Shown here piece after piece: positions 27,511-30,625 of a stretch of 37,923 bases of DNA; positions within the stretch are counted from its first letter, which is position 1, and each line of letters starts with the position of its first letter. This DNA is from a virus. A model generated the notes under the pieces. The model was not told the origin of the DNA and ran no database searches. It saw only the letters and a list, made by a program, of their open reading frames with translations. The stretch is taken from positions 1 through 37,923 of the IMG/VR virus record IMGVR_UViG_3300011116_000197; one strand, 5' to 3'. The position numbers were made by a program, and so were the translations under genes.

Positions 27511-27544
27511 GGGCGGGTACCCGTCACTTGTGACGGGCACGCCC
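27511..27544 (-). promoter_or_regulatory. Leader hairpin before the 105-residue gene
   Basis: CCCGTCA-CTTG-TGACGGG is a perfect 7-bp hairpin, extended by GGGCG/CGCCC after a small internal loop. On the minus strand it is followed by GAAAAAAAG and then the ribosome site. It is not terminator-like in that direction. A 5' mRNA-stabilising or RNase-processing hairpin is plausible. Confidence 0.55.
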
Positions 27545-27551
27545 TTGTTGG

Positions 27552-27905
27552 TTACTTGCAGTTTGGGCAGGCGATAGCCTTGTTGTGTAGATAGTGGCAG
27601 TCTTGGCATACGGTCTCGTTTGCCGTGACTGTGACCGACGTTTCTAGGTCATATAGACGGTCAGTGAGTAGAGCGATAGCGGGAAGATACTCATCACGTT
27701 CTGTCCAGTCGTGACCAGATACTGGCTCCGACTGGATAGACCAGACGTACTTGTACTGAAGATTGCCTTCATCAACTATCTGATGGGCAATATCTATGTC
27801 ACGACTGTCACGCAGTTCTTGGCAGTCGGGGCATAGTTCGGTTAACGCTTGGCATTGGTAGCACATAGTTTGGATTGAAATGCCATTGGTTTCTGTATTC
27901 ATCAT
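27552..27905 (-). CDS. Zinc-finger protein, first leftward gene, 117 aa
   Basis: Two zinc-like clusters are seen: MCYQCQALTELCPDCQ near 14-29 and VCQDCHYLHNKAIACPNC near 99-116. The middle is acidic and helical. ATG 27905 and ATG 27902 are adjacent; AGAAAGG suits the second slightly better. As the first gene of the leftward arm it is probably expressed early. Cys-pair modules at both ends suggest nucleic acid or protein binding. Confidence 0.75.
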   Translation of the reverse strand: MMNTETNGISIQTMCYQCQALTELCPDCQELRDSRDIDIAHQIVDEGNLQYKYVWSIQSEPVSGHDWTERDEYLPAIALLTDRLYDLETSVTVTANETVCQDCHYLHNKAIACPNCK

Positions 27906-27945
27906 TACCTTTCTGTCCTCAACCCAGCGTTGAAGATGCCGATAG

Positions 27946-28118
27946 CGTAAATCCCTCTGTCAACGAGGCAGCCCAGCCTGCGCTTATCAGGCGAAGCCTG
28001 ATGCAGGCATAGGGCGGGCGCACGGCGAGAGCGACGAAGGAGCGTCTGAGCGAAGCGAGGCGCCGACGCGCCCCGAGTTTAGCCTGAGCGTAGCGACGGC
28101 TTGACAGAGTGGATTACG
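27946..28118 (-). ncRNA. Candidate ~170-nt multibranched structured element
   Basis: A base stem of 17 pairs with two single-base bulges joins 27946-27963 to 28101-28118; the arms read TTGACAGAG outward on both strands. Inside, a long hairpin occupies 27971-28015 (GCCC, GCCTGC and ATCAGGC arms around a GAA loop). A second stem spans 28016-28073 (GGGCGC and CGGCG arms), and a weak hairpin lies at 28082-28100. It is far more GC-rich than its surroundings. It lies 41 bases ahead of the first leftward gene, so it may be its 5' leader RNA. A DNA cruciform is the alternative; strand is uncertain. Confidence 0.55.
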
Positions 28119-28262
28119 ATAGAGGCACCAACTGTAAATTAAAGGCAGCCTCAAAGGCTCTTGCTTGGTCTGGCACGGCGCGGCGATAGACGCGACAGCC
28201 AGACAGCCTTAGGCTGACGGTGCGTCCTGCACTGTCCACGCTTTTACCCGTGAGCCGAAGGC

Positions 28263-28286
28263 ATCGGCTTTGCCGATTAGGTTTTT
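28263..28286 (+). terminator. Weak possible rightward terminator
   Basis: ATCGGC-TTT-GCCGAT is a 6-bp hairpin. TAGG and then TTTTT follow. If functional it would end a plus-strand RNA coming from the GC-rich element. The stem is short and the T-run is displaced by four bases. Confidence 0.3.
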
Positions 28287-28365
28287 AGATTTTAGTTTAT
28301 TAGCCAGTGCTGTCAGATATATTTATAACAGAACTGGCGCGACTGGCAGGGAGCGCAGACTGTCT

Positions 28366-28410
28366 ACAGACCAGAACGCCCTGCTACAGAACAGAGCAGG
28401 ACTGGTCTGT
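28366..28410. repeat. Nested inverted repeat in the control region
   Basis: ACAGACCAG and CTGGTCTGT are perfect 9-bp arms. Within them CCTGCT and AGCAGG form a further 6-bp stem around a 9-base loop. Several CAGAC/GTCTG words occur on both sides. Possible protein-binding or origin structure. Confidence 0.6.
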
Positions 28411-28515
28411 GTCTGTGCTGAGTCTACGCAGACCCCAGACTTATTAAATTCGGGTTAAGCACAGTAGAGTATCTACCAGAACTATTTTCCCGTACAAAGC
28501 CTATGCCCCTATCCT

Positions 28516-28535
28516 GTCCTATTTTGTCCTATTTT
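28516..28535. repeat. Tandem 10-mer GTCCTATTTT
   Basis: GTCCTATTTT occurs twice in direct succession in an AT-rich stretch. An iteron-like or unwinding element is possible. Confidence 0.6.
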
Positions 28536-28616
28536 AGATAGTCTATTCTGTGAGTTACATTACACTTTGCTACAAAAACGTTCGTTTGGGCTGTTTGAAC
28601 GGATTAATAGATAGTA

Positions 28617-28670
28617 GGGACTATTTATAGTCCCGTCCTGTAGCAAGGTCTTCAGGACCTTGCGTTACAG
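28617..28670. repeat. Two adjacent hairpins upstream of terminase
   Basis: GGGACTA-TTTA-TAGTCCC (28617-28634) is perfect. GCAAGGTC-TTCAG-GACCTTGC (28643-28663) is perfect and is extended by CTGTA/TACAG. An alternative stem GTCCTG/CAGGAC (28635-28658) cannot form together with the second, so two states are possible. Confidence 0.65.
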
Positions 28671-28715
28671 ACTGTATCTACTGTCTGTTTCTAACTGTCT
28701 GTACTAACTGACAGT

Positions 28716-28727
28716 ATCTATATAGAT
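28716..28727. promoter_or_regulatory. Palindrome ATCTATATAGAT before terminase
   Basis: A perfect 12-base palindrome ends 11 bases before the terminase start. Two CTGTCTGT words (28681-28688 and 28695-28702) and TGTATCTA/AGTATCTA near-repeats lie just upstream. Together they look like an operator cluster for the rightward arm; the AT-rich core could also serve as a -10 region. Confidence 0.45.
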
Positions 28728-28738
28728 GGGACAGTTCT

Positions 28739-30625
28739 GTGACTTTTCAGAAAGGCAAAGCCAACCCTCGGACGGAGGCTATGGCTGGAGCAAAGGCTAA
28801 AGTAATAGCCCTTGTCTCTGAAGGCTGGGCGCCTCATAAGGCGATGGCTGAGGTGGGCAAGCAACCTGACACCATTCGCATTTGGATGATGCGGGATAAG
28901 AAGTTTGCCGCTGACCTAGCACAGGCAAAGGAAGACGCTAAAGAGCGTTCCTTGACCGCCTTGGGCATAGCCCGTGAAGATATAAGTTTTCCACAGTTCT
29001 CTGAGATGTTTTTAGAGCAGAAGGTCTTTCCCCACCATCAGGACTGGATTGACCTATTAGAGGGACGGGAGCCTAGTTGGCTCCATCCAAGTATGATTTA
29101 TGAGAAGGGCGACCCTAACCGCCTTCTTGTAAATGTGCCGCCTGAGCACGCTAAGTCCACCGTTATCACGGTGAACTACTCTACCTACCGCATCGCGCTA
29201 AATCCTAATGTCAGAATCATCGTAGTTTCTAAGACGTTAGTCAAAGCACGTGAGTTCGTGTATGCCATTAAACAAAGGTTAAGCCACCCGCGCTGGTTGA
29301 AGTTGCAGACAACTTTTGGACCAGAAGGGGGATGGAAAGAAGATTCCGATACCTGGCGTGTTGACACTGTCTATTTGGGAAGCGATGCCCGTAATTCATC
29401 TGAGAAGGACCCAACGATTCAGGCACTCGGTATGGGGGGTCAAATCTACGGTGCCCGTGCCGACCTCATCATCCTAGACGACTGTATTACCACTGCTAAC
29501 GCTCACGAGTATGAGAAGCAGATTAACTGGTTGCAAAAAGAAGTTATTACCCGTTTGGGTAAGAATGGCAAGTTGTTAGTAGTAGGAACCCGAATTGCGC
29601 CGACAGACTTTTATAAAGAACTTCGTGACCCGAAACATTGGTCGGGCGGTAAGAGCCCGTTCACTTACATGGGTATGCCTGCCGTGCTGGCGTATGCGGA
29701 TAAGCCAAAAGACTGGGAAACTCTCTGGGCTAAATCGGACGTTCCGTGGGATGGCGATGATGAGACACCTGACGAGCAAGGGCTCTACCCGAAATGGGAC
29801 GGTCCAACACTCGCCCGACGTAGGGGAGAGGTAACTCCATCTACGTGGGCGCTGGTCTACCAGCAAGAAGATGTTAACGAAGATTCTATTTTTCCCGCTG
29901 AACTGGTGCAAGGTTCGCTCAATGGAATGCGTAAGCGTGGTCCACTAAGACCAGGCGCTGTAGGACATCCAACACAGGTTGAGGGATATACCGTTGTAGG
30001 TTTTGACCCTGCTATGGCTGGCAATGCTGCGTTTGTAGCGATGACCTATAACAGGCACGATGGAAAAATTTATGTGTTGGACTGCTTGAATATGGCAGAA
30101 CCGACACCACAGAAGATTAGGCAGGCAATTGAGGAGTTTGTTCAAAGGTATAAACCACAAGAACTCCGCGTTGAAATTAACGCCCACCAAAAAGCCTATG
30201 CCCTTGACTCCGACTTACAGCAATGGCTCGCATCTTATGGTGTTCGCCTCAATGCTCACTTCACTGGAAAAAACAAGTGGGATACCAACTTCGGAGTCGC
30301 AGGAATGTCTACGCTCTTTGGAACCATCATCAATGGCAAGCACCAAAAAAACAACATCATTGAACTCCCTAGCACTGAAAATTCTGAAGGACTTAAGGCT
30401 TTAGTTCAACAACTTATTACGTGGAAACCCAACACCAGGGGCAAGACTGACTGTGTGATGGCTATGTGGTTTGCTATTTTAAGATGTCGTGAATTTATGC
30501 AACAAAACTCTTATGTGCAAAAGTATGCTCACAACCGTTGGGCTACTAGAGCACAGGCACAAAAACGTTACTCAGTAAATCTAGACGAAGCCATTGCAGA
30601 GCAGTGGCAACAGACATACGGATAG
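28739..30625 (+). CDS. terL: Terminase large subunit with N-terminal small-subunit-like HTH
   Basis: Residues about 18-75 form a TerS-like helix-turn-helix (VIALVSEGWAPHKAMAEVGK, then DTIRIWMMRDKKFAADLAQA). The large-subunit ATPase follows: degenerate Walker A VPPEHAKST at 133-141, Walker B LIILDD at 243-248, and VVGTR at 281-285. The RNase H-like nuclease has GFDPA with D423, VEIN with E479 and TDCVMAMWF near the end. It drives genome packaging through the portal. The start is GTG 28739 with a weak ribosome site; the next Met is residue 15. No separate small subunit gene is seen nearby. Confidence 0.93.
   Translation: MTFQKGKANPRTEAMAGAKAKVIALVSEGWAPHKAMAEVGKQPDTIRIWMMRDKKFAADLAQAKEDAKERSLTALGIAREDISFPQFSEMFLEQKVFPHHQDWIDLLEGREPSWLHPSMIYEKGDPNRLLVNVPPEHAKSTVITVNYSTYRIALNPNVRIIVVSKTLVKAREFVYAIKQRLSHPRWLKLQTTFGPEGGWKEDSDTWRVDTVYLGSDARNSSEKDPTIQALGMGGQIYGARADLIILDDCITTANAHEYEKQINWLQKEVITRLGKNGKLLVVGTRIAPTDFYKELRDPKHWSGGKSPFTYMGMPAVLAYADKPKDWETLWAKSDVPWDGDDETPDEQGLYPKWDGPTLARRRGEVTPSTWALVYQQEDVNEDSIFPAELVQGSLNGMRKRGPLRPGAVGHPTQVEGYTVVGFDPAMAGNAAFVAMTYNRHDGKIYVLDCLNMAEPTPQKIRQAIEEFVQRYKPQELRVEINAHQKAYALDSDLQQWLASYGVRLNAHFTGKNKWDTNFGVAGMSTLFGTIINGKHQKNNIIELPSTENSEGLKALVQQLITWKPNTRGKTDCVMAMWFAILRCREFMQQNSYVQKYAHNRWATRAQAQKRYSVNLDEAIAEQWQQTYG

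Follow-up and report, generated by a model that had tools for sequence, protein, structure and literature searches.

A probable conserved structured RNA with exchangeable parts in front of the terminase gene in a group of related phages

What does a phage keep in a long divergent region directly before its terminase gene, and does it have the marks of a structured RNA? We asked this of IMG/VR record IMGVR_UViG_3300011116_000197, a virus record of 37,923 nt (37.9 kb) that was analyzed whole and is called the window below. In it, 833 bases separate a leftward gene for a 117-aa protein from the gene for the large terminase subunit, and the original prediction had placed a candidate undescribed structured RNA within them, at 27946-28118. 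We conclude that a conserved structured RNA very likely exists here on the plus strand. The prediction largely holds but needs extending: a rightward RNA of about 300-370 nt appears to have the segment first described as its 5' domain. This RNA is absent from RNA catalogues, and many relatives keep it just before terminase. The features are as follows.

27552..27905, minus strand: leftward flanking gene, 117 aa, with CxxC pairs
27919..27933, plus strand: P0, a small hairpin (TCAAC-CCAGC-GTTGA) read in the sequence, between the ribosome-binding site of the leftward gene and P1
27946..27963, plus strand: 5' arm of the closing stem P1, core TGTCA, from the fold and from covariation with 28101-28118 in 13 distinct arm pairs
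27971..28015, plus strand: hairpin A inside P1 (helix P2 of relatives), from the fold and partly aligned to model R1
28016..28072, plus strand: hairpin B inside P1, from the fold
28081..28101, plus strand: P3, a weak helix (AGCC/GGCT) stacked directly on TTGACA, from the fold, position conserved
28101..28118, plus strand: 3' arm of P1, core TTGACA, with a one-base bulge at 28110, from covariation and the R1 match
28124..28224, plus strand: D2, a rod-like second domain of nested helices in which GCACC (28125-28129) pairs with GGTGC (28219-28223)
28179..28194, plus strand: apical hairpin of D2, CGCGGC-GATA-GACGCG, of the recurrent type GYGGC-N3/4-GACRC
28263..28287, plus strand: terminator-like hairpin ATCGGCTTTGCCGAT (ATCGGC-TTT-GCCGAT), then a T-rich run
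28290..28738: right half of the divergent region, conserved (it aligns in nearly all relatives) and outside the RNA as described
28739..30625, plus strand: large terminase subunit gene (phrog_38, E 6e-67)

The phage itself most likely infects Ca. Nanopelagicales or close actinobacteria and is lytic. We infer this host and lifestyle because the window carries a WhiB gene and a sigma-factor-like gene, because its terminase DNA is related to that of the cultivated Ca. Planktophila phages E7 and F5 (OX376640 and OX376641; 65% identity over 44% of the query), and because no relatives were found in bacterial genome contigs, so that there is no host or prophage copy. Phages of Ca. Nanopelagicales have been cultivated only recently (PMC10202952). 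These bacteria rank among the most abundant in freshwater, and an uncatalogued and widely kept phage RNA would offer a concrete non-coding target in their infections.

Folding of the segment recovered the architecture that had been described: a stem in which 27946-27963 pairs with 28101-28118, each side having a bulge of one base, closes off a pair of long hairpins, at 27971-28015 and at about 28016-28072, and a third, weak one at 28081-28101. This complementarity was rightly thought to exceed chance, with the plus strand folding at -81.9 kcal/mol (z -4.2, none of 200 shuffles as good) and the minus strand at -81.2 kcal/mol (z -4.8, 1 of 200 as good). The GC-richness (0.60 in the first 300 intergenic bases against 0.45 in the remainder) and the distance of 41 bases to the leftward gene were likewise as reported, whereas the start-to-start spacing of the two GAGCGWAGCGA copies is 38 bases rather than 36; these copies were not seen in relatives. 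No ORF of at least 60 aa lies between 27906 and 28269, and we therefore rejected protein coding inside the element. No tRNA or tmRNA was found in the window, and the leftward 117-aa gene has no Pfam or PHROG match. The claim that the RNA is undescribed also stands: Rfam 15 gave no family at curated gathering thresholds for the window and 16 relatives, and relaxing the limit to E 5 added only matches of chance level that lay outside the element. No description was found in the open-access literature, which is weak evidence of absence.

BLAST searches of relatives with the nucleotide sequence of the element were unproductive, so the family is visible only through structure; the whole left half of the divergent region, which holds the element, gives no BLAST alignment among relatives. 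Reading these left halves, we saw in many of them complementary arms that carry TGTCA and TTGACA at their ends. Scanning for such arms gave 16 distinct plus-strand copies against 2 in block-shuffled sequence, and 6 matches on the reverse strand that stem partly from the near-symmetry of the helix. In a later tally, the P1 pattern was found in 42 of 86 distinct intergenic regions, compared with 3 of 86 after block shuffling and 0 of 60 downstream stretches; the reverse complement gave 17 of 86, as expected for a near-symmetric stem. P1 recurs at the same place, between the leftward gene and terminase, with differing arm sequences and kept complementarity. The scan found nothing in 44 of the 86 relatives, a count that includes some diverged copies it missed, and phages E7 and F5 have no convincing P1. 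In six relatives without P1 (L038, L046, L059, L063, L065 and L107), we observed another small hairpin there, TCAGACYTGCG..CGC, with a changing stem.

The covariation check among homologous phages was strongly positive for the closing stem and for the domain that adjoins it, with compensatory changes exceeding those of shuffled controls. For P1, arms were aligned by hand from 18 loci, 13 of them distinct over ten pairs. Pairs 1-5 and 7-9 are standard in all 13, with up to five pair types per position, and the exceptions to Watson-Crick pairing comprise six G-U and no A-C. Since hand-placed bulges favor pairing, the control that matters is one in which 3' arms are swapped among sequences and the bulge is re-optimized; none of 3000 such shuffles was as well paired as observed. 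In 12 of the 18 loci, one or two bases, usually A, bulge out on the 3' side. A ten-sequence alignment of the short form had 98.7% of cells paired and 14 compensatory cells (0 of 500 shuffles as good). We also considered the TTGACA of P1 as a -35 box and rejected it because neither strand has a consistently spaced -10.

The closing stem thus proved to be the conserved part, whereas the internal hairpins stressed in the original prediction are the variable part. The loop enclosed by P1 spans 57 to 171 nt in the large forms, the common short form holds two helices (P2 and P3), and in other phages the TGTCAAG core is kept in one long hairpin whose loop region measures about 20 nt. Hairpins A and B are the window's own version of this interior. 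Hairpin A aligns to P2 in the model match; hairpin B has no counterpart seen in relatives, and at the P3 position many relatives carry AATCSC..GSGATT instead. Model R1 of the first domain matches window 27943-28124 weakly (E 0.017 in the window alone, 0.27 in a larger search). Behind the same P1 stand different second domains, a pattern of modular exchange.

The structured-RNA reading of the segment stood, but its extent did not. D2, at about 28124-28224, follows P1 immediately and was missed by the boundary at 28118, and conserved structure runs on to about 28224, possibly to the terminator at 28287. Window 28124-28224 is homologous to stretches in four other phages (L223, L202, L026 and L082), and the five together support 29 pairs in five helices with 141 of 145 cells paired, the gaps being hand-placed. 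Nine of these pairs are compensatory, with both sides changed, and the window itself carries two (Pb 30-114 and Pe 83-94). R2, a covariance model of the rod built from 19 other loci with the window left out, matches window 28153-28222 at 36.6 bits (E 3.8e-9), on the plus strand only. Two of 500 shuffles reached the covariation score of the R2 alignment and none its paired percentage; its lower helix is only 66% paired, the register differing between loci. The first domain and D2 probably belong to one molecule.

Among the intergenic regions of relatives, the apical hairpin of D2, GYGGC-N3/4-GACRC, has 16 distinct candidate forms on the plus strand and none on the minus strand. An exact search of 2.9 million viral contigs for the commonest form returned 38 stretches: 30 lie 479-780 nt before a window-related terminase on the same strand, six are on contigs cut before terminase with flanks of the same kind, and two (L274 and L290) are unrelated and without flanking complementarity. 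Separately, we observed that the D2 rod (28146-28246) matches the first-domain model R1 at 16.1 bits and that the rod and the L217-type P2 both hold CTCTTGC..GTCTGGC..GCCAGAC; this likeness suggests that the rod and the first-domain P2 may be copied modules. GGCACC (28124-28129) has two possible pairing partners, TGCC (27937-27940) and GGTGC (28219-28223), and pairing with one excludes the other.

Several kinds of evidence indicate that the RNA reads rightward, namely an excess of G-U pairs, better folding of the plus strand and an apical hairpin found only there. Across all candidate stems under GU-neutral selection, we counted 41 GT/TG against 9 AC/CA, a tally without a P value because some candidates are chance stems and the sequences are related. 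An 11-sequence alignment folded at -216.7 on the plus and -182.9 on the minus strand with alifold, and in some relatives the P3 loops are GNRA-like (GTAA), which also fits a rightward reading. An early, crude strand test on all hairpins of the region had taken in coding sequence and chance stems. No convincing plus-strand promoter was seen near 27900 or left of P0 in the window or in the relatives read; at the place of P0, just ahead of the leftward gene's ribosome-binding site, nearly all relatives read have a hairpin with a 3-5 nt loop and a changing stem. Terminator-like hairpins similar to that at 28263-28287 occur in L009, L013, L032, L049 and L053, the stem being changed in L053 (AATTGGC/GCCAATT). 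Such sites follow P1 in 7 of 28 large-form regions on the plus strand, 1 of 28 on the minus strand and 0 of 28 shuffled ones; the scan found no compact terminator in the other 21 of the 28. In L217-type phages, the bases just 5' of P1 could pair with bases after D2 and so close the whole RNA. For the right half, RNAalifold showed several hairpins to be conserved but little strand difference (-85.0 against -78.2), and we therefore do not count this half within the RNA.

We propose that the RNA would be read rightward, starting at about 27910-27945 and with its 3' end in the interval from about 28224 to 28287. P1 would close a multi-branched 5' domain, the inner part of which phages exchange, and the rod-like D2, with its conserved apical loop (GGC-N4-GAC), would form the 3' domain. 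The molecule may be transcribed, released and act in trans as a stand-alone RNA during infection; we consider the chances of this evenly balanced, and favor it because modules exchange fast, because the element was not found in about half of the relatives while the conserved half remains, and because a terminator-like site follows. Given the rapid exchange at one locus, its role may face the host, with a host protein or RNA as the target that it binds or decoys, and not lie in core replication or packaging. That P1 was not found in 44 of 86 relatives, nor convincingly in E7 and F5, suggests a role that is dispensable or replaceable. Such swapping of RNA modules before terminase would resemble that of protein cassettes at counter-defence loci.

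The main alternative, possible though somewhat unlikely, is that the element is a cis-acting leader, the 5' end of a rightward late transcript that controls the terminase operon, at the level of elongation or expression, as an attenuator or put-type antiterminator would. The put antiterminator RNA of phage HK022 has about 65-70 nt and two hairpins. Like put, the element is a structured phage RNA with bulged stems near a possible transcript start; it differs in being longer and in being followed by a terminator-like hairpin. A leader would explain why the element always lies on the sense strand of terminase, a few hundred bases before it, why a terminator-like hairpin stands between the two and why minimal relatives keep a single hairpin there. 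It fits poorly with the conserved right half (28290-28738), which stands between the element and the gene and persists in phages that lack the element, and with a second domain and a first-domain interior that vary far more than control of an essential operon would suggest.

We regard an RNA-based replication origin, in which a primer or R-loop starts DNA synthesis, as unlikely. Actinophage intergenic RNAs can serve replication, and RNA-based prophage origins have been proposed for mycobacteriophages Alma, LadyBird and RedRock (PMC7157519). Those, too, are intergenic non-coding RNA regions of several hundred bases, and by analogy the structured divergent region, a GC skew that changes sign near the element and the presence of primase and DnaB-like helicase genes with no replication initiator recognized among the genes examined would suit an origin. 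However, the sign change of the skew goes with gene direction as well, about half of the relatives keep the right half but yielded no P1, and the known cases serve extrachromosomal prophages and lie beside parA, whereas no parABS or integrase was seen among the window genes examined. R1 and the P1 motif, the two queries compared, had no match in the Alma and RedRock regions.

Still less probable is a DNA-level element, with GC-rich palindromic units moving or multiplying as DNA (REP/MITE-like) or forming a cruciform and no functional RNA. Nested GC-rich hairpin units do recur, and the first-domain P2 resembles the D2 rod as if one unit had been copied; yet G-U over A-C, folding and the apical hairpin are all strand-asymmetric, covarying helices join distant, non-adjacent arms, and exact unit copies in this phage group sit at one locus wherever terminase is in view. 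A packaging RNA working with the adjacent terminase, by analogy with the folded prohead RNA of phi29, suits the constant position before that gene but is most improbable, as the element is missing from close relatives with near-identical terminases (L004, for example, at 97% identity) and the phi29-type pRNA model of Rfam does not match it.

A stand-alone RNA of this kind would resemble the ornate GOLLD and ROOL RNAs that phages and prophages carry, many GOLLD RNAs exceeding 800 nt (PMC12286853). All are phage-borne and elaborate; unlike those RNAs, which span several hundred to more than 800 nt and often lie near tRNA islands, this one has about 300-370 nt and lies beside terminase in a window without tRNA genes, and the Rfam covariance models of GOLLD and ROOL do not match it. 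Tentatively, we suggest a fast-evolving modular class of phage RNA in which a constant scaffold (P1 and the 3' rod) carries swapped modules, down to a single hairpin, and in which a shape switch through GGCACC might occur. If true, RNA-module exchange at a fixed place would offer an unusual chance to see large phage RNAs emerge from hairpins.

Three further observations concern the surroundings. Directly before terminase, 28560-28738 contains conserved hairpins (of the type CGTTCG..TGAACG, GGGACTATTTATAGTCCC and GCAAGGTCTTCAGGACCTTGC) and tandem CTGTCTGTA-like repeats, which could be packaging or late-promoter sites. Between two leftward genes, a nested inverted repeat, GGGCGGGTACCCGTCACTTGTGACGGGCACGCCC, spans 27511-27545; L138 has GGGCGAATACCCGTCACTTGTGACGGGTTCGCCC there, still largely complementary. 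The N-terminus of the terminase (28739-28960) looks like a helix-turn-helix and is possibly a fused small subunit.
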